From Dyadobacter fanqingshengii (lineage in GTDB: Bacteria; Bacteroidota; Bacteroidia; Cytophagales; Spirosomataceae): 64,000 bases of DNA. The position numbers and the translations under genes were made by a program. Shown here one piece after another: positions 41,064 to 56,434 of this stretch (its first letter is position 1; every line of letters starts with the position of its first letter). Location: assembly GCF_023822005.2 (NCBI RefSeq), contig NZ_CP098806.1:5392501-5456500 (forward strand). The letters are read 5' to 3'. Below the pieces are notes generated by a model. It was not told the origin of the DNA, made no database searches, and saw only the letters and a list, made by a program, of their open reading frames with translations.

Positions 41064-41095
41064 GGCGGGAGAGCTTAGGCTTTCCCGCCTTTTTT
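41064..41095 (+). terminator. Terminator after the fasciclin gene
   Basis: GGCGGGA (41064-41070) pairs with TCCCGCC (41083-41089), 12-base loop, followed by six T. It separates the fasciclin gene from the sugar locus. Confidence 0.75.
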
Positions 41096-41252: not shown

Positions 41253-42017
41253 ATGAATTCCAGATTTATCAGCGCCGGACTTATCCTGGCCGTTTTATTG
41301 ACCATCGGAAGCCAGATTTCATGCGTAGCCCAGAAGAAAGAAAAAGGCTATGTATCCATTTTTGATGGCAAATCATTAAAGGGCTGGGATGGAGATCCGA
41401 AATACTGGAGAGTTGAAAACGGAAATCTTGTAGGAGAAATCACACCGGAAACCCTTTTGAAAACAAATTCTTTCATCATCTGGAAGGGCGGCGAGCCAGC
41501 AGATTTTGAATTGAAAGGTTCGGTAAAAATTGCGACTGCCGGTAATTCAGGAGTAAATTACAGAAGCGAGCAACTAACAGACGTTCCTTTTGCGCTCAAA
41601 GGTTACCAGGCTGATATCGACGGAAAAAACAATTATACCGGCCAGAATTATGAAGAGCGCAAAAGAACAACGCTTGCATATCGCGGTCAGAAAACAACGA
41701 TCAAGCCTTACAAAGGAGAAAATACGCCGGAGGCCGTTCGTGCAGGTGTGAAGGGCAATGCCTGGACAGGTCTGGAAGTAACCGGTTCATTAGGAAGCTC
41801 GGATTCATTAAAGACTTTGATCAAAAGCGAAGACTGGAACGAATTCCACATTATCGCCAAAGGGAACCGTCTGCAACATTATATTAACGGCGTATTGATG
41901 AGTGACGTTACTGATAATGATACGGTTAATGGTAAAAAAAGCGGATTGCTTGGCGTACAGGTTCACGTGGGCCCGCCTATGAAAGTGGAATACAAAGATT
42001 TGAGAATCAAACAATAG
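41253..42017 (+). CDS. DUF1080 protein (3-keto-disaccharide hydrolase family)
   Basis: An exported concanavalin-like jelly-roll protein of 254 aa. The signal peptide MNSRFISAGLILAVLLTIGS is followed by cleavage near VAQ or a poor lipobox at QISC. FVSIFDGKSLKGW-like VSIFDGKSLKGWDGDPKYWRVENGNLVGE is the family start and GNSGVNYRSEQL the conserved mid motif, with LLGVQVHVGPPMKVEYKDLRIK at the end. Family members hydrolyse 3-keto glycosides made by a Gfo/Idh/MocA oxidoreductase. It opens a co-directional run of genes through 50.5 kb with small gaps, which makes this a strong pathway signal. Confidence 0.92.
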   Translation: MNSRFISAGLILAVLLTIGSQISCVAQKKEKGYVSIFDGKSLKGWDGDPKYWRVENGNLVGEITPETLLKTNSFIIWKGGEPADFELKGSVKIATAGNSGVNYRSEQLTDVPFALKGYQADIDGKNNYTGQNYEERKRTTLAYRGQKTTIKPYKGENTPEAVRAGVKGNAWTGLEVTGSLGSSDSLKTLIKSEDWNEFHIIAKGNRLQHYINGVLMSDVTDNDTVNGKKSGLLGVQVHVGPPMKVEYKDLRIKQ

Positions 42018-42051
42018 CGTGAATGCCGGCAATGGCAAGAATTACAGTAAA

Positions 42052-42903
42052 ATGAATAAAATAGGATTTAATGTGCTTGCCTGGACGGCGGCGGTTTCTG
42101 ATGATCTTTTTCCCATTTTAGACCGGTTGAAAGGAATCGGTTACGACGGAGCGGAATTTTATTTAGGCCCTCAGGAATCTGCTGCTTACCAACGTGTTGG
42201 AAATTATACCAAAGACATTGGTTTGGAAACCACAGCCGTAATGACCCTCGGCGCGGATGAAAATCCCGTGAGCGAATCGGTGGAAGTGAGGCAAAAAGCT
42301 TTGGATAAAATCAAATGGGCTGTCGATCGCGCACATGACCTGAATGCAAAAATAATCTGCGGACCTTTTCATTCTGCGCATACGGTTTTTGTCAATCGGC
42401 CTGCGTTGGATCAGGAATATGCATTGGCTGGAGAAGTTTTGCATGCCGCCGCGGATTATGCCGCACAAGCCAACATTACATTCGCATTGGAAGCATTGAA
42501 CCGTTTTGAATGCTATTTGTGCAACACCATGGAGCAGCTGCTCAAACTCGTTAAAGCCGCAAACCATCCCCATGTGCGGGCGATGTTTGACACACATCAT
42601 TCCAACATTGAAGAGAAAAAATATTCGACAGCATTGCAGACCATAGCACCCGTTTTGGCTCACGTTCATATTAGCGAAAACGATCGCGGAACGCCGGGTG
42701 ACGGACAGGTGCTTTGGGATGATGCGTTTTCTTCCTTGGCAGCAATTAAATATCAGGGCTGGCTTACGATTGAAGCATTTTCAAGGAATGACCCGGATTT
42801 TGCAAATGCAATCGGAGTCTGGCGCGAATTTTCAGATCCGTGGGACATTGCTGAGAATGGCTACAAATTCATCCGCGAAATGAGCCTGAAACACGGTCTT
42901 TAA
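42052..42903 (+). CDS. Ketose 3-epimerase-like TIM barrel (D-tagatose/D-psicose epimerase type)
   Basis: A 283-aa cytoplasmic sugar epimerase of the AP_endonuclease_2 TIM-barrel group. I chose ATG 42052 rather than GTG 42019 because the fold begins at once with MNKIGFNVLAWTAAV. The four metal ligands of D-tagatose 3-epimerase are all present at E147 (ALEALNRFE), D180 (MFDTHHSNIEE), H206 (HVHISENDRGTPG) and E241 (TIEAF), each exactly five residues before the E152, D185, H211 and E246 of Pseudomonas cichorii D-tagatose 3-epimerase. C3 chemistry on a ketose fits the DUF1080 neighbour. Confidence 0.9.
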   Translation: MNKIGFNVLAWTAAVSDDLFPILDRLKGIGYDGAEFYLGPQESAAYQRVGNYTKDIGLETTAVMTLGADENPVSESVEVRQKALDKIKWAVDRAHDLNAKIICGPFHSAHTVFVNRPALDQEYALAGEVLHAAADYAAQANITFALEALNRFECYLCNTMEQLLKLVKAANHPHVRAMFDTHHSNIEEKKYSTALQTIAPVLAHVHISENDRGTPGDGQVLWDDAFSSLAAIKYQGWLTIEAFSRNDPDFANAIGVWREFSDPWDIAENGYKFIREMSLKHGL

Positions 42904-42927
42904 GCAAACCAACATCATTCCTGACCC

Positions 42928-43995
42928 ATGCAAAAAACCTTGAAATCATTGCTGTTCATCAGCTTTGCCACATTAATATTCAGTTTTATATCGGTTCAGG
43001 CCAGCGCGCAAGGCGATGACGCCGGCAAATATCGCGTCGTTTACAAAGGTGATAAGGGACCGGGCGTTGGTAAAAACATCGTTTTCATCGCCACCGACCA
43101 CGAATACAGAGGCGAAGAATCACTGCCAGCATTAGCAAGGATCTTAGCTAAACGTTACGGTTTCAACTGCACGGTCGTATATGCGCTGGACTCAGCAGGC
43201 AACATTTTTCCGGGTGGTTCCAACATCAAAGGCCTTGATATCCTGGATAAGGCCGATCTGCTGGTCATGTTCATGCGCTTCGCCCATTTTCCCGATGCAG
43301 AAATGCAGCATATCGATGATTATGTGAAAAGAGGCGGGCCTATTGTCGCATTCAGGACGTCTACGCACGCTTTTGACATTAAAAACAATCCTAAATGGGC
43401 ACATTACGGCTGGGATTACAAAGGTGAAAAGACCGACTGGAAAGACGGTTTCGGCGAGTATGTGCTCGGTGAAACCTGGGTTTCCCATTACGGCACCAAC
43501 CACCAGCAATCGTCCAAAATCATTATTGAAAAATCACAAGCCGAGCATCCGATCATGCGCGGCGTGAAAGATATGTGGGTGCAGTCCGGCGGTTACACGG
43601 CCGAGCCTAAGGGAACTGTCCTCGCAAAAGGCGAGGTGTTAAATGGCATGACTGCAACTTCCGAGCCTGACAAAACGAAAGAAATGCTTCCGGTTGCCTG
43701 GATTAAGGATTACCAGGTTGAAAACGGCAAAAAAGGACGCTCGTTCACAACCACACATGGCGCATCGGAGGATTTGCTGAATGAAGGCTTCCGCCGGATG
43801 GCGCTGAATGCAGCTTTTTGGGCCATGGGCATGGAAACAGAAATTAAGCCCAATAACGACATTGCATTTGTAGGACCTTACAAACCCACAACTTTCAATT
43901 TCAGCGGTTATAAGGCCAATGTCAAACCATCGGATCTGGCAGGCTGGGATTCGCTCATTATGCCCGGCGAGATCGTCAAAAAGAAGACAAAGTAA
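42928..43995 (+). CDS. ThuA-domain protein, exported
   Basis: A 355-aa ThuA-like (glutamine-amidotransferase-fold) protein. The signal peptide MQKTLKSLLFISFATLIFSF is followed by cleavage near SAQG. The conserved IATDHEYRGEESLPALARILAK start, DLLVMFMRF, GGPIVAFRTSTHAF and ATTHGASEDLLNEGFRR-like stretches are clear. ThuA partners ThuB, a Gfo/Idh/MocA enzyme, in the rhizobial trehalose/maltitol operon that works through 3-keto derivatives. It lies between two sugar epimerase genes. The reaction of ThuA itself is not established from the sequence. Confidence 0.9.
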   Translation: MQKTLKSLLFISFATLIFSFISVQASAQGDDAGKYRVVYKGDKGPGVGKNIVFIATDHEYRGEESLPALARILAKRYGFNCTVVYALDSAGNIFPGGSNIKGLDILDKADLLVMFMRFAHFPDAEMQHIDDYVKRGGPIVAFRTSTHAFDIKNNPKWAHYGWDYKGEKTDWKDGFGEYVLGETWVSHYGTNHQQSSKIIIEKSQAEHPIMRGVKDMWVQSGGYTAEPKGTVLAKGEVLNGMTATSEPDKTKEMLPVAWIKDYQVENGKKGRSFTTTHGASEDLLNEGFRRMALNAAFWAMGMETEIKPNNDIAFVGPYKPTTFNFSGYKANVKPSDLAGWDSLIMPGEIVKKKTK

Positions 43996-44028
43996 TTTTT
44001 TGATCTGATAAATTAATTAAAGCATTTA

Positions 44029-44856
44029 ATGTCTCAAACACTTCCATTTCGCTGCGGATCAGAGGTTTACACCTGGTTTATGAGCAACAACGGTCAAACG
44101 CATCAAGGCCGGCTTGGTCACATGATTGAAGTCATCGCCAAAGCCGGATTCACGGGAATTCAGCCCATTTTTACCTGGATGGGCGATTTGATCGATCCCG
44201 ATAAGCTGGAAGCAAAGTTGGATGAACAGGGCATTGAGCTGGCAGCATTAGCGCTTGCATTGGACTGGAATGAGGCTGAGGAAACCGAACGCGAGCGCGA
44301 AGTGGCCGATCATGCGATCAAAGTCTTGCAACGTTTTCCAGGCGCAGTTTTAAACACCGTGCAAATCCCAACAGGTCGTCACGACCTGGCAGAGCGACAA
44401 AAACGCCTTGTTAACATTGTAAACACCGTTTCAAAACGCGCCGCCGAAAAAGGCATTCCTTGCAGTTACCATCCTAATTCACCGCACACCTCCATTATCC
44501 GCACAGCCGAAGATTATAAAATCGTCCTCGAAGGACTGGACGCATCGGTTACCGGCTGGACGCCCGATGTAGGCCACATTATCAACGGCGACATGGATCC
44601 TTTGGCCAAAATGAAGGAATATCAGTCACTTATTAACCACGTCCATTTCAAGGATTGGGATGGAAACCCCGAATTTACATTAATGGGCAAGGGGAAAGTG
44701 GACCTCCTCGGCGTAACGCAGTGGTTGAAAGATATTGGTTACAGCGGCTGGATCATTTGTGAAGACGAAGGAAAAGAAGCATTGGAAGATCCCGATTTCG
44801 TAACTACACATGACGGCAATTGGATCCAAAACGACCTGATACCAGCATTAAGATAA
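44029..44856 (+). CDS. Sugar phosphate isomerase/epimerase (IolE-like TIM barrel)
   Basis: A 275-aa cytoplasmic TIM barrel. The metal-site pattern differs from the 42052 paralogue: IPCSYHPNSPHT, then WTPDVGHIINGDMDP, then NHVHFKDWDGNPEF and ICEDEGKEA. This resembles inosose dehydratase / sugar isomerase IolE members, which may act as a dehydratase or lyase on keto sugars. It is 33 bases after thuA and 6 bases before the hydrolase gene. Confidence 0.85.
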   Translation: MSQTLPFRCGSEVYTWFMSNNGQTHQGRLGHMIEVIAKAGFTGIQPIFTWMGDLIDPDKLEAKLDEQGIELAALALALDWNEAEETEREREVADHAIKVLQRFPGAVLNTVQIPTGRHDLAERQKRLVNIVNTVSKRAAEKGIPCSYHPNSPHTSIIRTAEDYKIVLEGLDASVTGWTPDVGHIINGDMDPLAKMKEYQSLINHVHFKDWDGNPEFTLMGKGKVDLLGVTQWLKDIGYSGWIICEDEGKEALEDPDFVTTHDGNWIQNDLIPALR

Positions 44857-44862
44857 ACGCCC

Positions 44863-45669
44863 ATGCCGACGATCAAGACCAACGGAATCAACATGTATTA
44901 CGAAGAAAGGGGCTCCGGCGAGCCGCTTTTGCTGATCATGGGCATAACCGCGCCTGGGTCAGTCTGGAATGTGCATGTAGCCGATTGGAAACAGCATTTC
45001 CGTTGCATCATAGGCGATAACAGAGGCGTAGGACAAACAGACAAGCCAGCAGGCGCATACACAAGCGAGCAAATGGCCGACGATTATGCCGGTTTGCTGG
45101 ACTCACTGGAACTGGAAAATGTGCATGTGGTAGGATGTTCCATGGGCAGCACCATTGCACAGCAACTGGCGATCCGGCATCCGAAAAAAGTGAGATCATT
45201 GGTATTAATGTGCCCTTGGGCGCGCTGTGACGCTTATGCGAAGGGATTATTCCAGCATATCATGAACAGCAAAGCCAGGTTCAGACCGGAGGAGTTTAGC
45301 TTATACATTCAATTATTGATCTTTTCAAAAGCATCCTGGGACGATCCAAAACAGCACGAAGAACTTGAACTGGGCAGAAAACAAGATGCTGTAAATCCAT
45401 TTCCCCAACCATTGCACGGACTGGAAGGCCAGGCAGCTGCATGCATTAATCACAATGCGCTCGCTGATTTGGGTAAAATAGAAAAACCCACATTGGTGAT
45501 CGGAGGAAAAGAAGACATTTTCACACCTGTTTGGATGGCACAAGAGGTCGCAAACGGCATTCCGAATGCAGAGCTATTCCTTTACGAGAAGCTCGGACAT
45601 GCATTTCATTTTGAAAATACGGACGATTTTAATTTAAGAGTGAGGGATTTTCTTTCGAGAACACATTAA
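44863..45669 (+). CDS. Alpha/beta hydrolase, lactonase- or esterase-like
   Basis: A 268-aa cytoplasmic serine hydrolase similar to 3-oxoadipate enol-lactonase-type enzymes. The catalytic triad is visible: serine in VGCSMGSTIA (about residue 95), aspartate in GGKEDIFTP, and histidine in LGHAFHFE. The oxyanion region is MGITAPGSVW. In a sugar oxidation operon it could open a lactone made by an oxidoreductase; this is inference. Confidence 0.85.
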   Translation: MPTIKTNGINMYYEERGSGEPLLLIMGITAPGSVWNVHVADWKQHFRCIIGDNRGVGQTDKPAGAYTSEQMADDYAGLLDSLELENVHVVGCSMGSTIAQQLAIRHPKKVRSLVLMCPWARCDAYAKGLFQHIMNSKARFRPEEFSLYIQLLIFSKASWDDPKQHEELELGRKQDAVNPFPQPLHGLEGQAAACINHNALADLGKIEKPTLVIGGKEDIFTPVWMAQEVANGIPNAELFLYEKLGHAFHFENTDDFNLRVRDFLSRTH

Positions 45670-45715
45670 GGAAAGGGCATAACGGCCTTTTTTAATTTTT
45701 GAATTGACATTATAA

Positions 45716-46783
45716 ATGGAAAGTGCGGAGCATATAAATCAAGACTGGAAAGAGAAAGTAGGCAATCATGTACAGATAGGCGGAATAGAAACGTCTGTCC
45801 TGGACAATGGTGCCGGAAGAGGCACGCGGATCGCCTGGATTAACACAGGGGCCGGGCTACGTTTCAAAGTGGTCATTGACAGGGCAATGGACATTGCAGA
45901 AGCATTTTACAATCAGCATAGTCTGGCGTGGCTGAGTCATGGCGGCATCACTTATCCGCAGCCATTTTCAGATAAAGGAATTGATTGGTTAAGGACATTT
46001 GGAGGCGGTTTGCTCACAACTTGCGGCCTTACGCACGTAGGCGGGCCAGAGTCGGATAGTTTTGGAGACAGAGGCTTGCACGGTTTGATCAGCAATTCAC
46101 CCGCAGAAATCGTTTCAATCATTCAGCCGGATGTAAGAGCTGGAAAGCTGGAAATGAGCATTACGGGCATAATCAGGGAAACAAAACCATTTGGGCCAAG
46201 TCTGGAACTGAAACGGACCATTTCAGCAACATTAGGCCAGCCCGGAATCCGCATTCATGACGAAGTGACCAATAAAGGCAACACGCCTTCGCCGCATATG
46301 CTTTTGTATCATTTCAACTTCGGCTGGCCGCTGGCTGACGAAGGCACTGATATTCTTTGGAGAGGCAAATGGCATCCAAGGCATGGCGAAGAGAATGCAA
46401 AGATTTTCAAAGAAGGAAACGATTTCAAAAAGTGCCCCGCACCATTGGATGATCATCTCGGAAGCGGCGAAGAAGTGGCTTTGGTTGAGATTGAGGCGGA
46501 TATTTTCGGCGACAGCGTTTGCGGACTTTATAACGAAAAAATCGGCCTGGCGGTTGGACTAAAATTTAAAAAAGAACAACTGCCCTGGATGGCCAACTGG
46601 CAACATTGGGGAAAAGGCGAATATGTAACCGGGCTGGAACCGAGCACGCATCCATTATCCGGGCAGGCCCAGGCGAGGGAGGATAAGACATTGATTTTCA
46701 TCGAGCCGGAGGAAACGAAGGTCTATGATTTGGAATTGAATGTGATGACCGAGAAGGAAGCGATTGATGAATACTTTTTATGA
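45716..46783 (+). CDS. DUF4432 aldose-1-epimerase-like protein
   Basis: A 355-aa galactose-mutarotase-like beta-sandwich protein. Family features are DIAEAFYNQHSLAWLSHGGITYP, the FGGGLLTTCGLTHVGGP segment and HLLYHFNFGWPL-like LLYHFNFGWPLADEG with the conserved glutamate/histidine region. It probably acts on the anomeric centre of a sugar. It follows the hydrolase by 46 bases and is followed by the REP-like repeat. Confidence 0.88.
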   Translation: MESAEHINQDWKEKVGNHVQIGGIETSVLDNGAGRGTRIAWINTGAGLRFKVVIDRAMDIAEAFYNQHSLAWLSHGGITYPQPFSDKGIDWLRTFGGGLLTTCGLTHVGGPESDSFGDRGLHGLISNSPAEIVSIIQPDVRAGKLEMSITGIIRETKPFGPSLELKRTISATLGQPGIRIHDEVTNKGNTPSPHMLLYHFNFGWPLADEGTDILWRGKWHPRHGEENAKIFKEGNDFKKCPAPLDDHLGSGEEVALVEIEADIFGDSVCGLYNEKIGLAVGLKFKKEQLPWMANWQHWGKGEYVTGLEPSTHPLSGQAQAREDKTLIFIEPEETKVYDLELNVMTEKEAIDEYFL

Positions 46784-46794
46784 ATAAGGGCCCT

Positions 46795-46965
46795 TTGTCA
46801 GCCTGAGCCTTTTGCCCTTGTCAGCCTGAGCGGAGTCGAAGGCACGAGCGAGACGCCTTCGTGTGTAGCGCGCCTTCGACTCCGCTCAGGCTGACAAAAG
46901 CAGGAGGCTCAGGCTGACAAAAGCAGAAGCTCCGGCTGACAAGGCAAGGCTCAGGCGGATGAAAA
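46795..46965. repeat. REP-like palindromic repeat cluster inside the sugar operon
   Basis: A 26-bp perfect inverted repeat (46818-46843 and 46872-46897, core GCCTGAGCGGAGTCGAAGGC) forms a long hairpin with a 28-base loop. Partial copies of the arm (TTGTCAGCCTGAGC, AGGCTGACAA) lie before and after, at 46795, 46908, 46934 and 46948. Such arms are common intergenic repeats in Bacteroidota. It lies between the DUF4432 and cupin genes, and may block or protect the transcript. Confidence 0.85.
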
Positions 46966-47010
46966 GCTGATATTAATAATTTTACTAAACCAAATTTTTT
47001 CAAAAAAACA

Positions 47011-48225
47011 ATGGGACTTTCGAGTATAGCCGAAAAGGCATTAGAGCAGGGAAAAGGGATTTTGCGTTTGGCGCCGACTTGGGTGCCGCGTTCATTCTGT
47101 GTGCCCGGCCGCAGGATCAAATTACATCCGGACGATTATTATGTACTGGGTGGAGAGCGTGGCGGTATCGATGAGCGCTGGTTATCTTCTACCACTCCCG
47201 CAGAGAACGGGCCGCTGACAGGCGAAAATGAAGGTTTGAGCCAAATCGTTCTGGAAGATGAGTCAGGCGTTCAAAAAGTCACATTGCGTGATGCGGTGGA
47301 AGAGCTGAAAGGCGAAATTATTGGTAACAGACTTTGGGATCAATACAAAAGCTGGCCGATGTATTCCAAGTTTTTTGACAATATGGGCCCGCTTCCGCAC
47401 CATATCCACCACAGAGACGAGCACGCCGCCATGGTGGGTCAGAATGGAAAGCCGGAAGCCTACTATTTTCCGCCACAACTCAACAACCACGGCGGCGACT
47501 TTCCTTATACATTCATTGGTATTGCTCCCGGTACTTCCAAAGAACAGATCAAGGAGTGTCTGATGAACTTCACCAAGGGTGACAATAAAATCACTAACTA
47601 CTCTCAGGCATTTCGTCTGGAACCGGGAACGGGCTGGGATGTGCCTCCTGGCATGCTGCACGCGCCGGGCAGCTTGTGCACGTATGAGCCGCAAAAAGCA
47701 TCGGACATTTTCGCCATGTATCAATCGCTTGTCAACGAGGCGGTCATTCCGGAAGAGCTGCTTTGGAAAGGTACCCCGCAAGACAGAATTGGCGATTACG
47801 ACTTGTTGATGGAAGTAATCGACTGGGATTTGAATGTCAATCCTAATTTGATGGAGAAACATTTCATGCGTCCGAAACCGGTGAAAGATGTTGCCGAGAT
47901 GGAAGCGGAAGGATATAGCGAGAACTGGATTTGCTACAAGAACGAAGCTTACAGTGCCAAAGAACTGACCGTATTCCCTGGGCAAACCGTAACAATTAAA
48001 GACGGTGGCGCATACGGAATGATAGTGATGCAGGGCCACGGAAAATTCGGAGAATGGGACATTGAAACACCCGCATTGATCCGTTACGGACAACTGACCA
48101 ACGATGAGTTTTTTGTGAGTGAAAAAGCTGCGACAGAGGGCGTTGTGATCAGCAATCCTTCCAAAACAGACCCAATTGTAATTCTGAAACACTTCGGTCC
48201 GGGAAATCCTGACCTTGTTCTTTAA
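47011..48225 (+). CDS. Mannose-6-phosphate isomerase-like cupin protein
   Basis: A 404-aa double-cupin protein related to class I phosphomannose isomerases. The metal-ligand pattern GPLPHHIHHRDEHAA and KPEAYYFPPQL matches the PMI QVHP...KPE region, and PPGMLHAPGSLC is the later histidine. The carboxyl half has a second cupin (PGQTVTIKDGGAYGMIVMQGHGKFG). It is probably a sugar isomerase, but it lacks some of the usual sequence and its substrate is unknown. It is 18 bases upstream of the next TIM barrel. Confidence 0.82.
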   Translation: MGLSSIAEKALEQGKGILRLAPTWVPRSFCVPGRRIKLHPDDYYVLGGERGGIDERWLSSTTPAENGPLTGENEGLSQIVLEDESGVQKVTLRDAVEELKGEIIGNRLWDQYKSWPMYSKFFDNMGPLPHHIHHRDEHAAMVGQNGKPEAYYFPPQLNNHGGDFPYTFIGIAPGTSKEQIKECLMNFTKGDNKITNYSQAFRLEPGTGWDVPPGMLHAPGSLCTYEPQKASDIFAMYQSLVNEAVIPEELLWKGTPQDRIGDYDLLMEVIDWDLNVNPNLMEKHFMRPKPVKDVAEMEAEGYSENWICYKNEAYSAKELTVFPGQTVTIKDGGAYGMIVMQGHGKFGEWDIETPALIRYGQLTNDEFFVSEKAATEGVVISNPSKTDPIVILKHFGPGNPDLVL

Positions 48226-48243
48226 CCAATAAATTCTTAAACC

Positions 48244-49305
48244 ATGCCTGAAAATAATTATCCTAAGCTTCACAATGCCACATGGCCTGGGATTGTGGGT
48301 AAAGGTTCCGACTCGGAGCCGATTATTTCTTTTGATACAATGCTTGAAAAAACTGCCTCTGCGGAAGTGGACGGCGTTCGTTTTGACGGCGTTGATCTGG
48401 GCCTTTTCGACCCGCATGTTGGCATTTATATGAACCAGGACGGCGGTGCCGAACGCCTGGCTGAAAAGCTGAGCGGCCTGAACCTTGAAGTGGGAAGTCT
48501 TGTGGCCAATGTTTGGGCTGGTTCTGCAATGGGAACGAAGGAAGCAAAAGACACATTTATCGAGCAGGTGCGTCAGGCTTGCGTTTTTGGTAAACAACTG
48601 CGTGACCTCGGCATTCGTCAGGGCGGGGTAATCCGTGTTGACTCAGCCGCTTCGCCCGAAGTTTGGTCTGCTGATCCTGCTGCAAACACGAAGCAAATCG
48701 CGGAAACATTCAGACGCGCTTGTGACGTGGCTGCTGATTTTGGTGAAAAAATTGCTGCCGAAGGTGAAATCTGCTGGGGCGGGATGCATAGCTGGAAGGC
48801 AATGCTCGACACGTTGAAGGCAGTGGATCGCCCGAATATGGGTTTCCAGGCCGATATGTCACATACATTCCTTTATCTTTTGGGTTACAATGCGCCTGAA
48901 CACCGCATTTTGCCTGTGGATTTCCAATGGGGCGACCGCTTTGCTTTGGAAGAAGGTTTGAAAAAAATGACTGCTGAATTGCGGCCTTATACATTCGATT
49001 TCCACGTTGCACAAAACGACGGAACGGTTCATGGAACAGGTTCGCACGACAAAACAGGGCGTCACTGCCTGGCAACAGATCCAAACGGGAAACTGGACAT
49101 TACAAAAGACGCCGGATATTGGCTGCGGGATGAAAACGGCAATGTTACCAAGGCATTCCGTCACATTTGCTGGGATGGCTGCATGTTCCCGAACGAGGTG
49201 ATGACCAACCAGCAAACCTGGAATGACATTCTTGCGGCGCTCGTGAAAGTGCGTCAGGCGCATGGCTGGTATCAGGAAGATAAAGTTGTTTCTCCTATCG
49301 TTTAA
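48244..49305 (+). CDS. Sugar isomerase-like TIM-barrel protein
   Basis: The third TIM-barrel sugar isomerase/epimerase of the locus, 353 aa and cytoplasmic. Likely metal ligands are seen in [24 protein letters not shown], and [24 protein letters not shown]. It does not match the D-tagatose epimerase ligand pattern, so its chemistry differs from the 42052 paralogue. It is 19 bases before the Gfo/Idh/MocA gene. Confidence 0.85.
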
Positions 49306-49324
49306 CCCGATTCGAATTAATAAT

Positions 49325-50485
49325 ATGTCAAATAAAAAAGAAATCAGGATTGCATTAATTGGCACCGGTTTAATGGGCCGGACGCATTCCAATGGATATA
49401 AAAGAATAGGTGACTTCTTCCCCGAATTGGAGTATCGTCCCGTTTTGAAGGCAGTTTGCTCTCGTAACGAAGAAAAAGTGCGCGCATTTGCGGAACAATG
49501 GGGTTATGAATCCATTGAAACAGATTGGAGAAAGATTATTGAGCGCGACGATATCGATGCAATAGACATTTGTACGCCCAATGACACGCACGCTGAAATC
49601 GCGATTGCAGCAGCAGCAGCGGGTAAGATGATCCTTTGCGAAAAACCATTGGCAAGGACATTGGAAGAAGCCAAAACCATGGTGGACGCCATTGAAAAAG
49701 CGGGTGTTCAAAACACAGTTTGGTATAATTATCGTCGTGTGCCTGCCGTAACGTTGGCAAAGCAAATCGTTGATTCTGGTAAGCTAGGTCGTATTTTCCA
49801 TTATCGCGCTAATTTCCTGCAAGACTGGACGATCAATCCGGATGTACCGCAAGGCGGCGCTGCAACTTGGCGCTTGGATGTGGACGCAGCCGGATCCGGC
49901 GTAACAGGCGATTTGCTGGCACATTGCATTGACACTGCCATGTGGATCAACGGCGGCATTAAAGATGTATCGGCTGTTACAGAGACATTTATCAAAGAAC
50001 GCGTGCATTCAGACAGCGGCGAGGTGAAGAAAGTGGGCATTGATGACGCTTGCATTTTCCACTGTCACTTTGATAATGGTTCATTAGGTCTTTTTGAATC
50101 AACGCGTTATGCCCGCGGTCATAAGGCGCTTTATACATTTGAAATCAACGGCGAGCATGCTTCGATCCGCTGGGATCTGCATGATCTGAACCGTCTGGAA
50201 TTTTTCGACCACAGCGATGAATCCATTGTTCGCGGTTGGAGATCGATTCTGGTTACAGACAGCGACCAGCCTTATATGAAGCGTTGGTGGATTCCGGGCA
50301 CGAGCATTGGTTACGAACATTCATTCATCCACCAGGCAGCCGACTTTTTCGAAAGTCTACAAACTGGGGAGCCTTGTCGCCCAACGTTTAAAGATGCCTA
50401 CGAAACCCAGAAAGTGTGTGAAGCAGTTCTGGATTCAGCCGCATCAAAAAGCTGGAAGGACACCGGTGTAACCTGGGAAGGTTAA
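49325..50485 (+). CDS. Gfo/Idh/MocA oxidoreductase, cytoplasmic
   Basis: An NAD(P)-dependent sugar dehydrogenase of 386 aa. I chose ATG 49325, which opens directly with the Rossmann fold; the longer frame from 49262 would overlap the previous gene by 44 bases. Motifs are [13 protein letters not shown] (nucleotide), [31 protein letters not shown] and [15 protein letters not shown], in which the D and H are the catalytic pair. It lies at the end of the nine-gene run and is followed by a terminator. Confidence 0.92.
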
Positions 50486-50512
50486 GAAAGGTCTAAGGCC
50501 TACGAAAACACA

Positions 50513-50560
50513 AAGGCTCCGGCACACATCCGAAAATTCAGAATGTGGCCGGAGCTTTCT
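50513..50560 (+). terminator. Terminator between the isomerase operon and the ABC importer genes
   Basis: CTCCGGC-A-CACAT pairs with ATGTG-GCCGGAG (one bulged A) with flanking AAAGG/CTTTC. The U-run is only CTTTCTTC. The ABC genes start 15 bases later, so their promoter must overlap it or read-through occurs. Confidence 0.7.
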
Positions 50561-50574
50561 TCTAATCAAGAACG

Positions 50575-52077
50575 ATGTCTGAACCAATCCTCAAAGTCTC
50601 AAATCTGACAAAGTCATTTTCCGGTGTAAAAGCGCTGGATAACATTCAGTTTGAGCTGAAAAGAGGAGAAGTCCATGCATTGATGGGAGAAAACGGCGCA
50701 GGGAAATCAACCTTTATGAAAATCCTGATCGGCCTAATGGCACCGGATTTGGGAGAAATTATTTTCGAAGGAGCAGATTTAAGAAACAGCAATGTCAGCG
50801 ACACATTGAAGCGGGGCATTTCAATGATTCACCAGGAAATTCTGATCATTCCCGAGCTGACTGTTGCACAAAATATTTTTTTGGGAAGAGAAAGGGAAAT
50901 TTCAGGAAGAAAAGGCTGGACTTCCGGCTGGTTGAATAATGCTGCTGTTAATCAAAGAGCGGCGGATCTATTACAAGAAATGGGTGTTACCATTGATCCC
51001 GAGGGCAAAATGAATCATTTGAGCGTTGCTCAGATGCAAATGGTGGAAATTGCAAAAGCGATTTCAAATGATGCAAAAGTGATCATTATGGACGAGCCTA
51101 CGTCGGCCATTTCGGACAAGGAAGGTGATACACTTTTCAAAATCATCAAAGACTTAAAAGCGAAGGGGGTTGCTATCATTTACATCTCCCACAAAATGGA
51201 CGAGATTTTCAAGATTTCGGACACTATAACCGTCCTGCGCGATGGCAGATACATTGCCACGAAAAGCGCCGCAGAGCTGGACAAGCAATCATTAATCTCC
51301 ATGATGGTCGGCCGGGAAATTGAACACATGTTTCCCGATTCTAATAATAGTAGAGGCGAGCTGGCGCTTTCAGTGATAGGTTTGAGCAAAAAAGGCCAGT
51401 TCTCCGATATCAATTTCGATGTGCATGCAGGAGAAATTCTTGGTTTTGCAGGCCTTATGGGCGCAGGGAGAACCGAAATTGCACGCGTGATTTACGGCTT
51501 GGATAAGCAGGATGGAGGCGAAATCAGGATCAAAAATAAATCAGTCACGAACAAAACTCCCCGTCAGGCCATTGAAAACGGCATTGGTTATGTTAGCGAG
51601 GATCGTAAGGGTTTGGGATTCATTCCCGGCATGTCGGTGAAGGATAACACCACATTGGCCAGCATGAACCGTCACCGAAAAGGGATTTTTATTGATAAAA
51701 CAAGTGAGAGAACTTCCACCGAGCAAATAATCGCTGACTTACGCATTAAAACTGCCGATATGAGCCAGAAAGTAACGTATCTCAGCGGTGGAAACCAGCA
51801 AAAAGTGGTCATAGGGAAGGTTTTATTAGCCTCACCTGAAATTATCATTTTAGATGAGCCAACCAGAGGTGTGGATGTCGGGGCAAAATTTGAAATATAT
51901 AAACTCATCAGAAACCTCGCAGACAAAGGAATAGCCATCATCATGATTTCCTCGGAACTGCCTGAGATTCTGGGCATGAGCGACAGGATTTTGGTTTTAT
52001 CCAAAGGAAAACAAACAGCAATTCTTTCCAGACAGGAAGCGACGCAGGAATTAATTATGAAATACGCGGTCGCCTGA
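50575..52077 (+). CDS. Sugar ABC importer ATP-binding protein (RbsA-like)
   Basis: A 500-aa tandem ATPase for sugar import. The first half has Walker A GENGAGKSTFMKIL (about residues 38-51) and signature LSVAQMQMVEIAKAI. The second half has GLMGAGRTEIARVIYG, a degenerate P-loop usual in RbsA/MglA proteins, and LSGGNQQKVVIGKVLL with WALKER B IIILDEPTRGVDVG. It begins an operon with the permease (13-base gap) and binding-protein gene (25-base gap). Sugar specificity is not visible. Confidence 0.95.
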   Translation: MSEPILKVSNLTKSFSGVKALDNIQFELKRGEVHALMGENGAGKSTFMKILIGLMAPDLGEIIFEGADLRNSNVSDTLKRGISMIHQEILIIPELTVAQNIFLGREREISGRKGWTSGWLNNAAVNQRAADLLQEMGVTIDPEGKMNHLSVAQMQMVEIAKAISNDAKVIIMDEPTSAISDKEGDTLFKIIKDLKAKGVAIIYISHKMDEIFKISDTITVLRDGRYIATKSAAELDKQSLISMMVGREIEHMFPDSNNSRGELALSVIGLSKKGQFSDINFDVHAGEILGFAGLMGAGRTEIARVIYGLDKQDGGEIRIKNKSVTNKTPRQAIENGIGYVSEDRKGLGFIPGMSVKDNTTLASMNRHRKGIFIDKTSERTSTEQIIADLRIKTADMSQKVTYLSGGNQQKVVIGKVLLASPEIIILDEPTRGVDVGAKFEIYKLIRNLADKGIAIIMISSELPEILGMSDRILVLSKGKQTAILSRQEATQELIMKYAVA

Positions 52078-52090
52078 TCGCCAATGAAAT

Positions 52091-53035
52091 ATGGATAAAT
52101 CTTTCCGGTTTAAACGTTTTGGCCAGTACGGCATTTTTCTAGCCTTTGCATTGATATGCCTGGCACTGGCATTGAGCACGCCCAGGTTTTTTACAGTTCC
52201 CAATTTAATGATCATCGGGACGCAGGTTTCGATCAATGCATTGCTTGCATTTGGCGTCACCTTCGTCATCATAACCGGCGGAATAGATCTTTCGCTTGGT
52301 TCGATGGTTGCCGTTGCGGGGGTTACCGCAGCCATGTTCGCCCATCCAGACACTTATCCACTATTAGTTCCATTGTTTGCCGGGTTGGGAGCAGGTGTGT
52401 TTTTCGGAGCATTCAATGGTTTTGTTATTACAAAAAGCAAAGTGCCACCATTCATCGTAACGCTCGGCACCATGACCATCGGCCGCGGACTTGCATTGAT
52501 TCTAAGCAAAGGCAGACCTATCTCCAATTTGTCAGATTCATTTAACTTTATCGGCGGCGGAAATGTCTTTGGCATCCCATTCCCGATCATTATACTGATC
52601 ATTGCGTTCATCATTTGCTCTATTATTTTGAATAAAACTGTCCTTGGGCGCTATATGTATGCGGTGGGCGGGAACGAGCCAGCCGCACGTGCATCGGGCA
52701 TCCGCGTTACCAACGTAAAAATGTGGGTATATACGCTTTGCGGGCTGCTTTCTGCTGTTGGAGGGATATTATTAACATCCAGGATCACTACGGGCCAACC
52801 CAATGCGGGTGCAGGATTCGAGCTGGACGCTATTGCGGCGGCAATCATCGGAGGAACAAGCACTTCCGGCGGGACAGGCACGATGGCCGGAACATTGATC
52901 GGCGCACTGCTCATTGGTGTCATTAGCAATAGTCTGGATTTGTTGAATGTGACTTCTTATTATCAGCAAGTCGTAATGGGCATTATCATTATCGGCGCTG
53001 TGGTGCTGGATAGTGCGGGTAAAAAAGATCGTTAG
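52091..53035 (+). CDS. Sugar ABC importer permease (RbsC-like)
   Basis: A 314-aa membrane protein of the RbsC/AraH group with about eight to ten TM helices. The opening IFLAFALICLALALSTPRFFTVPNLMII, VTFVIITGGIDLSLGSMVAV, and the cytoplasmic loop GNEPAARASGIRVTNVKMWVYTLCG that contacts the ATPase are typical. It sits between the ATPase and the binding protein, and a complete CUT2-type importer is formed. Confidence 0.95.
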   Translation: MDKSFRFKRFGQYGIFLAFALICLALALSTPRFFTVPNLMIIGTQVSINALLAFGVTFVIITGGIDLSLGSMVAVAGVTAAMFAHPDTYPLLVPLFAGLGAGVFFGAFNGFVITKSKVPPFIVTLGTMTIGRGLALILSKGRPISNLSDSFNFIGGGNVFGIPFPIIILIIAFIICSIILNKTVLGRYMYAVGGNEPAARASGIRVTNVKMWVYTLCGLLSAVGGILLTSRITTGQPNAGAGFELDAIAAAIIGGTSTSGGTGTMAGTLIGALLIGVISNSLDLLNVTSYYQQVVMGIIIIGAVVLDSAGKKDR

Positions 53036-53060
53036 TTTTCGAAAATTGAATCAAAATAGA

Positions 53061-54008
53061 ATGGTTAATTCATTGAAATATATTCTGATAGCAACATTAT
53101 CGTTCGCCATTACAAGTTGCAATCAATCTCAAAAAAGCGAAGGTTCAGAAAGCGGCTCAGGTAAGAAACTGGTTGTGGGAGCCACAATGCTAAGCATGCA
53201 AAACGAATTCATTGTCAATGTAAGTGACGAAATGGAAGCGAAAGCAAAGGAGCTGGGCGTGGAATTGATAACGGTGGACGCCGAACGCTCGGCGTTGAAG
53301 CAGGTGGAGCAAGTGGAAAGTTTCATCGCGCAAGGCGTGGACGCGATCATTATGAACCCCTGCGAAGTGGAGGCGAGTTCACCAGCCGTCAAGCTGGCAA
53401 TGGACGCTAACATTCCTATTATCAATGTCAATTCCGAAACTTCCGCAAAACCAACTGCATTTGTCGGTTCCGATGATACAGAATCTGCCCGGATTGCCAT
53501 GAAATATCTTGCTGAGAAACTTGGCGGCAAAGGAAATGTGCTCATTATGCACGGATTTATGGGTCAGGCCGCGCAAATCAAAAGAGATAACGGTGCAAAG
53601 GAAATATTGAAAACCAATCCGGGAATGAAGCTCCTTGCTGAGCAAACCGGTGAATGGGACCGGGCAAAAGCCATGTCATTAATGGAAAACTGGATTCAAT
53701 CGTTTGGCCCAAAAATCAACGCCGTTTTCGCCCATAATGATGAAATGGGCATGGGCGCAGTAAAAGCACTCGAAGCCGCTGGTTTGAAAGACAAAGTAAT
53801 CGTAGTGAGCGTTGACGCAATTCCCGACGCATTGCAATCCGTAAAAAAGGGCGCCTTAAACGCCACAATCTTCCAAAACGCCCAGGAACAAGGCGGCAAA
53901 GCCATAGAAACCGCAGTGAAAGCGGCTAAGAAAGAGAAGTTTGAGAAGGAGGTTCTAATTCCTTTTCAGTTGGTGACTAAGGAGAATGTTGGGGAGTATT
54001 TGAAATGA
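53061..54008 (+). CDS. Sugar ABC importer substrate-binding lipoprotein (RbsB-like)
   Basis: A 315-aa periplasmic-binding protein of the type 1 (RbsB) fold. I chose ATG 53061, which gives a lipoprotein signal with the lipobox ITSC at C20; the longer frame from 53013 would bury it. The mature part has KLVVGATMLSMQNEFIVNVS, IINVNSETSAKPTAFVGSDD and VFAHNDEMGMGAVKALEAAG. A lipid anchor is expected in a Gram-negative if the protein is tethered to the inner or outer membrane. It is likely a sugar receptor; the ligand is not determinable. Confidence 0.93.
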   Translation: MVNSLKYILIATLSFAITSCNQSQKSEGSESGSGKKLVVGATMLSMQNEFIVNVSDEMEAKAKELGVELITVDAERSALKQVEQVESFIAQGVDAIIMNPCEVEASSPAVKLAMDANIPIINVNSETSAKPTAFVGSDDTESARIAMKYLAEKLGGKGNVLIMHGFMGQAAQIKRDNGAKEILKTNPGMKLLAEQTGEWDRAKAMSLMENWIQSFGPKINAVFAHNDEMGMGAVKALEAAGLKDKVIVVSVDAIPDALQSVKKGALNATIFQNAQEQGGKAIETAVKAAKKEKFEKEVLIPFQLVTKENVGEYLK

Positions 54009-54164
54009 TTACTCAGGCTTTTTTCTTTCGTTAAGAAAACTTAGGTCGACGCCTTCCAGCTGTTTACGGGCAAGTTCATTTTTCATTTGAACAAATTCTT
54101 CAACGGAAGCATATACCCGTTCTTCTCTAAATTTGGTCCTTTTCGCTCTGGCTGTCGGATTCAT
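54009..54164 (-). CDS. 51-aa small protein overlapping the DUF6934 gene
   Basis: A short open frame of 52 codons including the stop, on the minus strand. It starts MNPTARAKRTKFREERVYAS, has a helical YASVEEFVQMKNELARKQ and ends with LEGVDLSFLNERKKPE. Its first 38 bases overlap the 3' end of the DUF6934 gene in another frame and its stop abuts the importer gene stop (54008). The basic N-terminus and the overlap suggest an antitoxin- or regulator-like partner. I do not recognise the family; it is reported as a probable gene because the length, codon use and overlap are plausible. Confidence 0.55.
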   Translation of the reverse strand: MNPTARAKRTKFREERVYASVEEFVQMKNELARKQLEGVDLSFLNERKKPE

Positions 54165-54615
54165 CTGATTTGTTGTTTAAGTATGTGATTAAAAATGCGT
54201 CATATTTTCGATTTGGAATGAAAGGTTCTCTTTTCATTCCTTTCAAGCCATAAATTTCGAAAATTCTTCTCGCTTCTAAAAGCTCTTTGCTTATAATAAT
54301 ATTGTAAAGTCGCGTTCTGGCAGGTGTGCTTCCGGTAATGTAAATGGATGAATTCGGATACGCTTTACAAAATGAGATCATGCTGTTTACAACAGTGGCA
54401 ATAACTTTCCCCATGTCAAGATTATTGCTAATATTTCGATCGCAGCTTTCTCCGTTGCTTAAAATATCGCATAAAGCTAAGTTATACATATTTGATACTT
54501 TTTCACTTGGCGTATAAATGATCAGTTTTCGGATAGACTTAAATTGGCTAACACTTTCAAACTCAAACAGCAAACAATTTTTGCTTACTTTATAGTCGTA
54601 ATATTCTGTTTTCAT
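54127..54615 (-). CDS. DUF6934-like protein
   Basis: A 162-aa protein of a Bacteroidota family I take to be DUF6934. I chose ATG 54615 (KTEYYDYKVSKNCLLFEFES); an earlier ATG at 54669 would add 18 residues. The conserved core is FCKAYPNSSIYITGSTPARTRLYNIIISKEL. It has no signal peptide and looks AT-richer than the sugar genes. It lies on the minus strand inside a long plus-strand locus, so it was probably inserted. The function is unknown; the overlapping 51-aa gene makes a two-gene unit. Confidence 0.7.
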   Translation of the reverse strand: MKTEYYDYKVSKNCLLFEFESVSQFKSIRKLIIYTPSEKVSNMYNLALCDILSNGESCDRNISNNLDMGKVIATVVNSMISFCKAYPNSSIYITGSTPARTRLYNIIISKELLEARRIFEIYGLKGMKREPFIPNRKYDAFLITYLNNKSDESDSQSEKDQI

Positions 54616-54757
54616 ATTACATTGTTTTTTCCGCCATTGAGACGCAGACGCAAAACAGAAGTCACTCATTTCAAATAAAAATTTTTGCTGAAAGTAAACC
54701 GGCCATTCAAGTCCCTTTTAGTCCCAACTGAGCTAGTCCTTAACCAATCAATATTCA

Positions 54758-56125
54758 ATGAATAGTTTCAATATCAATCGCCGGAGTTTTCTTCATGGCG
54801 CTACTGCGGCACTTGCGCTTTCTACATTTGGTGCGCGGGGAATGGACCTAATTAACCCGGCTAAGACGCTCCGTGTGGGGCTTATTGGCACAGGATGGTA
54901 TGGTAAAAGTGATTTGTTTAGATTGATACAGGTGGCTCCGGTTGAAGTGCTTGCGCTTTGCGATGTTGATAAAAATCAGTTGAATGAGGCTGGAAAACTG
55001 GTGAGCCAACGCCAGAAGTCTGGTAAGACGCCAAAGCTTTACGGTGACTATCAAAAGATGCTTGCGGAAAATGAAATGGACATTGTGCTTATCGGCACAC
55101 CGGATCACTGGCATGCTTTGCAGATGATCGACGCAGTGAAGGCAGGCGCGCACGTGTATGTGCAGAAGCCGATCAGCGTGGATGTGATGGAGGGCGAGGC
55201 AATGGTCGCCGCTGCCCGCAAATATAAGAAAGTGGTTCAGGTAGGAACGCAACGCAAAAGCACACCGCACTTGATCGATGCGAAGAAAAACATTGTTGAT
55301 GCCGGGTTGCTTGGGAAAATTTCACACGTAGAAATGTGCTGCTATTTTCACATGCGGAACAATGGCAATCCGCCGGTCGAAGCGGTGCCCGATTTTCTTG
55401 ATTACGAAAAATGGACCGGTCCGGCTCCGTTAAGGCCTTACGACGGCTTGCCACACGTGCGCTGGTGGCGCACATTTATGGAATACGGAAATGGCGTTAC
55501 AGGCGATATGTGTGTGCACATGTTTGATACCGTGCGCTGGATGCTCAAACTCGGCTGGCCTAAAAAAATCAGCTCAACCGGTGGTATTTATGTTCAGAAA
55601 GAAGGTAAATCCAATATTTCCGACACGCAATCGGCAATTTTTGAGTACGATGACTTGAATTGCGTCTGGCAGCACCGCACCTGGGGAACGCCTAATAACC
55701 CTGATTATCCCTGGTCGTTTACGCTATATGGAGAAAAAGGAACATTATGGGCGAGTACAATGGCCTATGATTTCATTCCACAGGGCAAAGGCGAAAAGAT
55801 CCATAAAGATGTAGTTTTTGAAAAGGAAAAATATCCGGAAGACGTAACCGAAAAGGCAATCGAACTCAATGCAGCTCCGGCAACGCGACTGCATATGCTT
55901 GACTTTTTAAGCGCGATTGACAACAGCAGCAAGCCCGTTGCCGATATCGAAGAAGGTCATATTTCTACGGCGAGTTGTATTCTTGCAAATCTTTCCATGA
56001 AAACCGGCCGACCCATTGTTTATGATCCGGTAAAACGCGAAATTGTAGGTGATAGAGAAGCCAATGCACTTTTGGCACGTCCATATCGAGATCCCTACAA
56101 GCATCCAGACTATAAGAAAGTCTAG
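54758..56125 (+). CDS. Gfo/Idh/MocA oxidoreductase with a Tat signal (exported)
   Basis: A 455-aa oxidoreductase with an N-terminal twin-arginine signal INRRSFLHGATAALALSTF, so it is probably exported folded with its nicotinamide cofactor bound. The Rossmann motif is GLIGTGWYGKSD and the later part has VQKPISVDVMEG and GNGVTGDMCVHMFDT, with the D/H catalytic pair. C-terminal residues RPYRDPYKHPDY are characteristic of this Bacteroidota subgroup. It could oxidise glycosides at C3 in the periplasm, feeding the exported DUF1080 and ThuA proteins. The gene sits alone after the importer and DUF6934 unit. Confidence 0.92.
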   Translation: MNSFNINRRSFLHGATAALALSTFGARGMDLINPAKTLRVGLIGTGWYGKSDLFRLIQVAPVEVLALCDVDKNQLNEAGKLVSQRQKSGKTPKLYGDYQKMLAENEMDIVLIGTPDHWHALQMIDAVKAGAHVYVQKPISVDVMEGEAMVAAARKYKKVVQVGTQRKSTPHLIDAKKNIVDAGLLGKISHVEMCCYFHMRNNGNPPVEAVPDFLDYEKWTGPAPLRPYDGLPHVRWWRTFMEYGNGVTGDMCVHMFDTVRWMLKLGWPKKISSTGGIYVQKEGKSNISDTQSAIFEYDDLNCVWQHRTWGTPNNPDYPWSFTLYGEKGTLWASTMAYDFIPQGKGEKIHKDVVFEKEKYPEDVTEKAIELNAAPATRLHMLDFLSAIDNSSKPVADIEEGHISTASCILANLSMKTGRPIVYDPVKREIVGDREANALLARPYRDPYKHPDYKKV

Positions 56126-56434
56126 CCCTTTGCAATAAAAGTTTGTGGTCCCTATAAATTCCCAGTACATCGCGTCCGGTTGACCCCGGGCGCGTATTTG
56201 TTTACAACCATTTCCGAACGATTCTTGTCTACTATTTCAGGGCAGTTTATGCAAACGTTTGCGTAAATGGAAAAGGCTGTTTCTGATGTGTTTAAGGGCA
56301 TTAATACAATGTTTTTTTAAACTTATATACCAAAAATATTTGTTTATAGTTAATATGATATTGTTGTCCGAACAATTAAACTTTTGCCCTCGGAAACTGT
56401 CAGATAATTACTAAAACTAAACGTTCAAACAAAA
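56126..56434. other. Intergenic region (309 bases) with a LacI-type operator
   Basis: No gene is apparent. It holds the LacI-like palindrome at 56247-56266, AT-rich DNA with AAATATTTG (a near -7 match at about 56335), and a small repeat ATTGTT/AACAAT (56360-56376). Confidence 0.7.
56247..56266. promoter_or_regulatory. LacI/GalR-family operator
   Basis: A 20-bp near-perfect palindrome with the perfect core GCAAACGTTTGC (56251-56262) and flanks TTA/TAA, with one mismatched pair. This is the classical LacI/PurR/CcpA type half-site arrangement. It is 122 bases after the Tat oxidoreductase and about 170 bases before the DUF4136 gene. Confidence 0.7.

Follow-up and report, generated by a model that had tools for sequence, protein, structure and literature searches.

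In Dyadobacter fanqingshengii, a run of thirteen genes for sugar catabolism and import has been analysed in a 64,000-nucleotide stretch of contig NZ_CP098806.1 (positions 5,392,501 to 5,456,500; assembly GCF_023822005.2, 6.27 Mb), referred to here as the window. Five of these genes, encoding a PMI-like cupin, a TIM barrel (TIM3), a Gfo/Idh/MocA dehydrogenase (Gfo1), an aldose-1-epimerase-like DUF4432 protein and an exported DUF1080 protein, form a core that recurs across the phylum Bacteroidota. Outside Dyadobacter, this core is frequently accompanied by SusC, SusD and an exported propeller-plus-heme protein, labelled PropCyt here, whose Dyadobacter orthologues lie in a second locus. In our judgement there is about an even chance that the window carries one half, the inner-membrane and cytosolic one, of an oxidative system for glycoside catabolism that is conserved in Bacteroidota, the PropCyt/SusCD half being encoded elsewhere.

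Glycoside hydrolases encoded in SusCD loci are the usual explanation for how Bacteroidota degrade sugars. If an oxidative route is conserved beside them, in many cases together with an importer for the inner membrane, it would account for numerous DUF1080, Gfo, TIM-barrel and heme-propeller genes that have no assigned role. With the five-gene core as a handle, tests on a small number of mutants could identify the substrate.

The five-gene core and its companions

The cupin, which belongs to no Pfam family, served as the marker. A profile built from 10 orthologues recovered 572 relatives, of which the best 80 loci were kept. Full 10-kb flanks were available for 53 of the 80 (12 from Dyadobacter and 41 from outside the genus), and gene presence was scored per locus with identity thresholds of our own. 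TIM3 and Gfo1 accompany the cupin (the query, hence 53) in every one of the 53 full-flank loci, DUF4432 in 52 and DUF1080 in 51. The association of cupin, TIM3 and Gfo1 is beyond chance, since both partners occur in all loci found through the cupin and cupins of at least 74% identity are spread over five families of the phylum. Core-bearing taxa include Larkinella, Spirosoma, Emticicia, Aquirufa, Cyclobacterium, Zobellia, Maribacter and Chitinophagaceae. Eight further genomes carry the same core, with DUF1080 proteins just 32% and 41% identical in two of them. In the locus of D. alkalitolerans the cupin is 100% identical to that of the window, and the other twelve genes are 84-98% identical.

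An initial annotation, made from the window sequence, had listed these thirteen genes as a single sugar-catabolic unit with its own importer and had proposed a look-up in related genomes. All of the listed genes are present, in one direction on the + strand, and the proposal of a unit is supported.

The gene counts in the full-flank loci make the conserved unit both narrower and wider than the set in the window. Genes of the Rbs-type importer lie near the core in about half of the loci (RbsA 28, RbsC 27, RbsB 27), and in 17, 17 and 16, respectively, of the 41 loci outside Dyadobacter. TIM1, TIM2 and the alpha/beta hydrolase were present in 25, 23 and 23 loci overall and in 13, 11 and 11 outside the genus, while Gfo2 was present in 9 and 1 and the ThuA orthologue in 10 and 2. 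Lineage additions thus account for Gfo2 and the ThuA orthologue, and partly also for TIM1, TIM2 and the hydrolase. When ThuA was counted at any identity, it was found in 10 of the 41 loci, eight of these being distant relatives (31-44%). A ThuA-type gene is therefore a recurrent, and not a constant, member of the set. DUF1080 occurs in 39 of the 41 outside loci, PropCyt in 34, SusC in 26 and SusD in 25; the last three have the same totals among all 53. In 23 of the 41, PropCyt and at least one of SusC and SusD occur beside the core. SusCD and PropCyt hence belong to the conserved unit, and all three had been lacking from the initial annotation.

Local variations were also seen. In Runella zeae (L133:11396-12808) an IS200-type transposase open reading frame (ORF) separates cupin and TIM3, the rest of the core being kept. 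Six loci (L074, L103, L065, L071, L080 and L132) have a gene with an FG-GAP repeat close to the core.

From DUF1080 to RbsB the intergenic gaps are 1-89 nt, save for 227 nt 5' of the cupin gene, when Gfo1 and RbsB are counted from 49325 and 53064, the likely starts by our reading (Table 1). The hairpin 3' of the upstream fasciclin gene is likely to be the start boundary of the unit. Terminator-like sites are not in excess in the region (21 vs 19.1 expected), only the strength of this hairpin being notable, and a Bacteroidota-type promoter pattern had 0 matches in the window vs 3.4 expected by chance. The three TIM barrels match PF01261 at 134, 95 and 48 bits. RbsB and Gfo2 are 749 nt apart, with an opposite-strand DUF6934 ORF in the gap; several Dyadobacter loci have minus-strand ORFs of 146-202 aa at that place, as compared by position. 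The GH130 gene upstream, a predicted beta-1,2-mannosidase, was considered as a further member and rejected: it was found in 11 of the 12 full-flank Dyadobacter loci and in none of the 41 others, and the strong terminator-like hairpin lies between it and DUF1080.

Table 1. Positions in the window of the gene set, its borders and its neighbours
Feature	Position	Strand	Evidence
GH130, upstream neighbour	39211-40356	+	passes curated beta-1,2-mannosidase cut-off, 671.6 vs 550
Intrinsic-terminator-like hairpin (11 bp, 8 G-C, TTTTTT) 3' of upstream fasciclin gene	41064..41089	+	terminator scan
DUF1080 / 3-keto-disaccharide hydrolase family; hydrophobic N-terminus, lipobox-like C; periplasmic	41253..42017	+	122 bits
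TIM1, xylose-isomerase-like TIM barrel nearest ketose 3-epimerases; cytosolic, accessory	42019..42903	+	D-tagatose 3-epimerase 123 bits
ThuA-family protein with signal peptide; accessory	42928..43995	+	48.5 bits
TIM2, IolE-like TIM barrel; cytosolic, accessory	44029..44856	+	family scan
Alpha/beta hydrolase, lactonase/esterase-like; accessory	44863..45669	+	107 bits
Terminator-like hairpin, weak (3 G-C pairs), between accessory genes and DUF4432	45670..45693	+	terminator scan
DUF4432, aldose-1-epimerase-like; core, cytosolic	45716..46783	+	338 bits
PMI-like cupin; core, cytosolic	47011..48225	+	query gene of the 80 loci
TIM3, xylose-isomerase-like TIM barrel; core, cytosolic	48244..49305	+	family scan
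Gfo1, Gfo/Idh/MocA dehydrogenase, likely start 49325; core, cytosolic	49262..50485	+	95.5 bits
RbsA-type (CUT2) double ATPase	50575..52077	+	family scans
RbsC-type permease	52091..53035	+	family scans
RbsB-type binding lipoprotein, likely start 53064	53013..54008	+	family scans
DUF6934 ORF between RbsB and Gfo2	54127-54669	-	147 bits
Gfo2, Gfo/Idh/MocA protein with twin-arginine signal NRRSFL	54758..56125	+	GFO_IDH_MocA 66.5 bits; C2 domain 76.6 bits
Terminator-like hairpin (9 bp, 8 G-C) 3' of Gfo2	56171..56194	+	terminator scan
1452-aa ORF reading as RND efflux pump plus in-frame membrane-fusion-type adaptor	57064-61422	-	translation read by eye

PropCyt and SusC/SusD in a second Dyadobacter locus

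PropCyt is an exported protein with a propeller resembling those of pyrroloquinoline quinone (PQQ) sugar dehydrogenases and with a CxxCH heme motif. It is not encoded in the window. Its Dyadobacter orthologue (G000:C1:1483289-1485982) is 62% identical to PropCyt of a core-bearing locus, L041, and lies directly 3' of SusC and SusD orthologues in locus L144. The contig distance between this locus and the window operon is 3.95 Mb; were the contig circular, the path in the opposite direction would measure 2.28 Mb. Identity between the SusD of this second locus and that of a relative with a single locus is 84%, against 50% for the next of the 79 SusD matches in the genome. SusD adjoins PropCyt in 19 of 19 Dyadobacter loci inspected out of 48 genomes, and PropCyt and the cupin are both present in all 48 genomes of the genus. 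In another genome (G190) the two likewise lie on different contigs.

Across 296 genomes of the phylum, PropCyt (E <= 1e-100) was found in all nine that have a cupin of at least 74% identity (five families) and in 16 of the 287 others (Fisher p 5e-11, uncorrected for kinship). PropCyt therefore has other partners as well. One genome with a 51% cupin (G200) gave no PropCyt match.

PropCyt has the propeller fold of the PQQ soluble sugar dehydrogenases. None of the 16 places in the genome that match PF07995 is that of PropCyt. The PVC-type heme-binding CxxCH proteins (TIGR02603/TIGR02604) are similar in the heme domain, where the orthologues in L041 and L042 score 90.4 and 98.2 against the TIGR02603 cut-off of 68.15; against the N-domain TIGR02604 both are below the cut-off of 122.2 (85.0 and 63.5).

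Other genes were seen around PropCyt. Directly 5' of SusC-SusD-PropCyt (L144:2-3862) are genes for a PSCyt1/PSCyt2/PSD1 cytochrome protein and a DUF1501 protein, and a pair of the same families lies 3' of the core in Larkinella (L072). Directly 3' of PropCyt (L144:11999-13877) are two adjacent PF01261 TIM barrels with twin-arginine-like starts, which are possibly exported. The whole genome (G000) has 39 matches to Gfo1, beside the 79 to SusD and 16 to PF07995 given above.

Proposed pathway and alternative explanations

Compartments were read from N-terminal sequences. By a crude hydrophobicity test on the N-termini of orthologues, DUF1080 (59/62), PropCyt (49/50), RbsB (31/33) and ThuA (11/11) are likely to be exported, and the cupin (0/79), TIM3 (1/71), Gfo1 (1/67), DUF4432 (2/75), TIM1 (0/32) and TIM2 (0/28) are not. 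The test skipped ORFs of 150 aa or less and those beginning less than 60 nt from a locus end; in a recount of seven genes these were 1 of 76 for DUF4432, 1 of 80 for the cupin, 1 of 68 for Gfo1, 5 of 55 for PropCyt and none for DUF1080, TIM3 and RbsB. It falsely flagged the alpha/beta hydrolase (27/28), in which plain reading finds a core strand near the start and no signal peptide, and missed the twin-arginine (Tat) signal of Gfo2 (0/10), which was read from the sequence. An exported DUF1080 is thus set apart from the cytosolic Gfo1, TIM barrels, cupin and DUF4432, as the initial annotation had supposed.

The relation to 3-keto-sugar enzymes supposed there also held, through DUF1080, which scores 122 bits against PF06439 (gathering cut-off 26.8), and through Gfo1, which is nearest to levoglucosan 3-dehydrogenase. 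DUF1080 has a distant match (22 bits) to 8tda, which we take to be BT2157. For Gfo1 the best curated family is levoglucosan dehydrogenase NF052479, at 347.4 bits and so below its cut-off of 650, and the next family is at 127 bits. In PDB it is closest to 4h3v, at 341 bits, followed by 6a3f at 282 bits, both titled 'Putative dehydrogenase'; the same set contains 6a3i, a levoglucosan dehydrogenase according to PMC10066097. Inositol catabolism was considered and rejected, Gfo1 scoring 127 bits to IolG vs 347 to levoglucosan dehydrogenase, and no IolD- or IolC-like protein was found among the 20 ORFs scanned with Pfam (35343-57010).

Conserved positions were picked from family motifs and invariant columns. 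E106-K107, D196 and H200 of Gfo1 are invariant in 19 of 19 sequences, a putative metal site of the cupin (H131/H133/E149/H217) and its K147 in 10 of 10, and six acidic or His positions of TIM3 in 28 of 28. The cupin had no match in Pfam or PDB sequence searches. For TIM3 the PDB sequence search was empty and the profile search gave one chance-level row, while the fold search, in which many TIM barrels tied, does not name a reaction. The nearest Gfo1 paralogue in the genome (42%, L145) has no core genes around it. Eight cupin relatives of 35-41% identity occur in other genomes without any core genes nearby; one of these (L051) has GH10, GH2, aldo/keto reductase and FGGY kinase genes as neighbours, and a role as a free-sugar isomerase seems likely for it. 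The importer fits the ribose-type CUT2 class, with ATPase, permease and Peripla_BP_4 lipoprotein in one operon. It reached no sugar-specific curated cut-off among the matches listed, and therefore no substrate is assigned to it.

The system is probably a variant of the known 3-keto sugar pathways, one in which a distant part of the genome encodes the protein likely to carry out the oxidation. An oligosaccharide or glycoside would be carried to the periplasm by SusC/SusD, and the exported PropCyt, from the second locus in Dyadobacter, would oxidise a sugar hydroxyl, probably at C3, and pass the electrons to the respiratory chain. DUF1080 would then cleave the oxidised glycoside in the periplasm, and the freed (keto)monosaccharide would be taken in by the Rbs-type importer. 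In the cytosol, the mutarotase-like DUF4432, the isomerase-like cupin, TIM3, as an isomerase, eliminase or hydratase, and Gfo1, as an NAD(P)-type dehydrogenase presumably working as a reductase, would convert it to a common hexose. The order of these steps is best argued from the type of importer and the split between compartments, and the pointers to C3 are two, the families of DUF1080 and Gfo1. The best fold matches of PropCyt are PQQ aldose dehydrogenases, and because these solved relatives act on C1, the fold favours C1 as much as C3. The scheme in its full form would make PropCyt a new single-chain propeller-heme glycoside 3-dehydrogenase of the Bacteroidota periplasm that feeds electrons directly to the respiratory chain. 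Cleavage by DUF1080 and CUT2 import of a free 3-keto-hexose would go with it, and a mutarotase, a cupin isomerase, TIM3 and Gfo1 would form a new route in the cytosol by which the 3-keto-hexose becomes usable, the two halves being split into distant loci of one Dyadobacter chromosome. We regard this full form as rather unlikely to hold in every part.

An unlikely alternative, though the best of those considered, is a pathway of the levoglucosan type. In this pathway an anhydrosugar or small glycoside would be imported intact and oxidised at C3 by Gfo1 with NAD. Elimination and hydration would fall to TIM2 and TIM3, and a reductase, possibly Gfo1 again, would regenerate glucose, the periplasmic genes being separate additions. 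It draws on a locus on a plasmid of Arthrobacter agilis (L199), whose Gfo_b passes the levoglucosan dehydrogenase cut-off (746.8 vs 650 bits) and has beside it another Gfo, a pair of TIM barrels and an importer of the Rbs type. Identity to Gfo_b is 40% for Gfo1; RbsA and RbsC are 43% and 39% identical to their counterparts, RbsB 27% over 57% of its length, and TIM2 30% (E 8e-23) to a 274-aa TIM barrel taken as LgdB1-like by its size and place. Published levoglucosan loci likewise combine a Gfo protein, TIM barrels and an ABC importer, the last also present in the window, and LgdB1 is reported from Bacteroidetes as well (PMC10066097). However, the score of Gfo1 is little more than half of that needed for the levoglucosan family, and none of the seven L199 proteins compared matched the cupin, DUF4432 or TIM3. 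Outside Dyadobacter TIM2 is present in just 11 of 41 loci vs 39 for DUF1080, which levoglucosan should not need, and SusCD and PropCyt are left unexplained.

Oxidation at C1 is a still more doubtful explanation. PropCyt would form an aldonolactone in the periplasm, and the cytosolic set would handle an unusual aldose or its acid, with no 3-keto chemistry. The fold matches of PropCyt, with their C1 specificity, agree with this, as does the lactonase-like alpha/beta hydrolase of the Dyadobacter operon. That hydrolase, however, appears to lack a signal peptide and is uncommon outside the genus (11 of 41 loci), DUF1080 and Gfo1 both indicate keto-sugars, and no look-alike of a sugar-acid dehydratase or kinase was found among the 20 ORFs scanned.

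Least probable, and very unlikely in our view, is the proposal of the initial annotation that the Tat-exported Gfo2 is the periplasmic oxidase, acting at C3 before DUF1080 as BT2158/BT2157 of Bacteroides: its best curated family is indeed the BT_2158 glycoside 3-dehydrogenase (NF058561), its best PDB matches are 8tdf (101.9 bits) and 8tdh (100.6 bits), presumably from the BT2158/BT2157 work, and its gene follows RbsB, but it scores 146.8 bits against a cut-off of 750, is cut off from the operon by the long gap and the DUF6934 ORF, and lies with the core in 8 of the 12 full-flank Dyadobacter loci and only one of the 41 others, there on the opposite strand, as also in locus L040. Given this single outside locus, Gfo2 is probably not the core oxidase. 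It is probably a separate addition in Dyadobacter.

Comparison with known systems

No description of the gene combination was found in the literature searched, which comprised titles and abstract openings and mostly excluded subscription journals; passages of an account of Maribacter on laminarin (PMC11345257) were not relevant to it. The initial annotation had likewise known of none. Its statement is qualified by the partial precedent of L199, where an importer of this type goes together with two TIM barrels and another Gfo.

The 3-keto-glycoside pathway of Bacteroides thetaiotaomicron, which we take to be the gene set BT2156-BT2160 (families NF058561 and NF058563; PDB 8tda, 8tdf and 8tdh), also combines Gfo proteins and a TIM barrel with a DUF1080 that is exported. 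The importer, cupin, DUF4432 and PropCyt are extra in the present system, and Gfo1 scores only 41.1 bits against the BT_2159 disaccharide 3-dehydrogenase NF058563 (cut-off 650).

In Caulobacter and other bacteria, the membrane-bound lactose 3-dehydrogenase LacABC carries out an oxidation in the periplasm, where a DUF1080 protein acts next; genes for a transporter, a reductase and two epimerases lie nearby (PMC9007349). LacABC is a three-component dehydrogenase, whereas the candidate here is a single propeller-heme chain. The match to the OGE/HYD glycoside beta-elimination operon of Agrobacterium (PMC10628242) does not stand out from those to numerous other TIM barrels, and the term DUF1080 is absent from the main text of that paper.

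The levoglucosan loci lgdA-lgdB1-lgdB2/B3-lgdC, described in Bacillus smithii (PMC7676230) and Paenarthrobacter (PMC10066097), share with the window, as does L199, a Gfo/Idh/MocA dehydrogenase of the same broad clade, PF01261 TIM barrels and an ABC importer. They differ in that the annotation of L199 and the B. smithii gene list, as retrieved, are without DUF1080, cupin, DUF4432, SusCD and a heme dehydrogenase. A second cytosolic Gfo reductase like LgdC is absent from the present unit, in which Gfo1 is the sole Gfo without an export signal; LgdC is also missing near 114 of 265 published LgdA genes (PMC10066097). No part of the system is new in kind, and the literature already describes comparable pathways. 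Because of the likeness of Gfo1, TIM2 and the importer to L199, the closest described logic would be, by analogy, oxidation at C3, elimination or hydrolysis, and then reduction, as outlined in these accounts (PMC7676230, PMC10066097, PMC10628242, PMC9007349).

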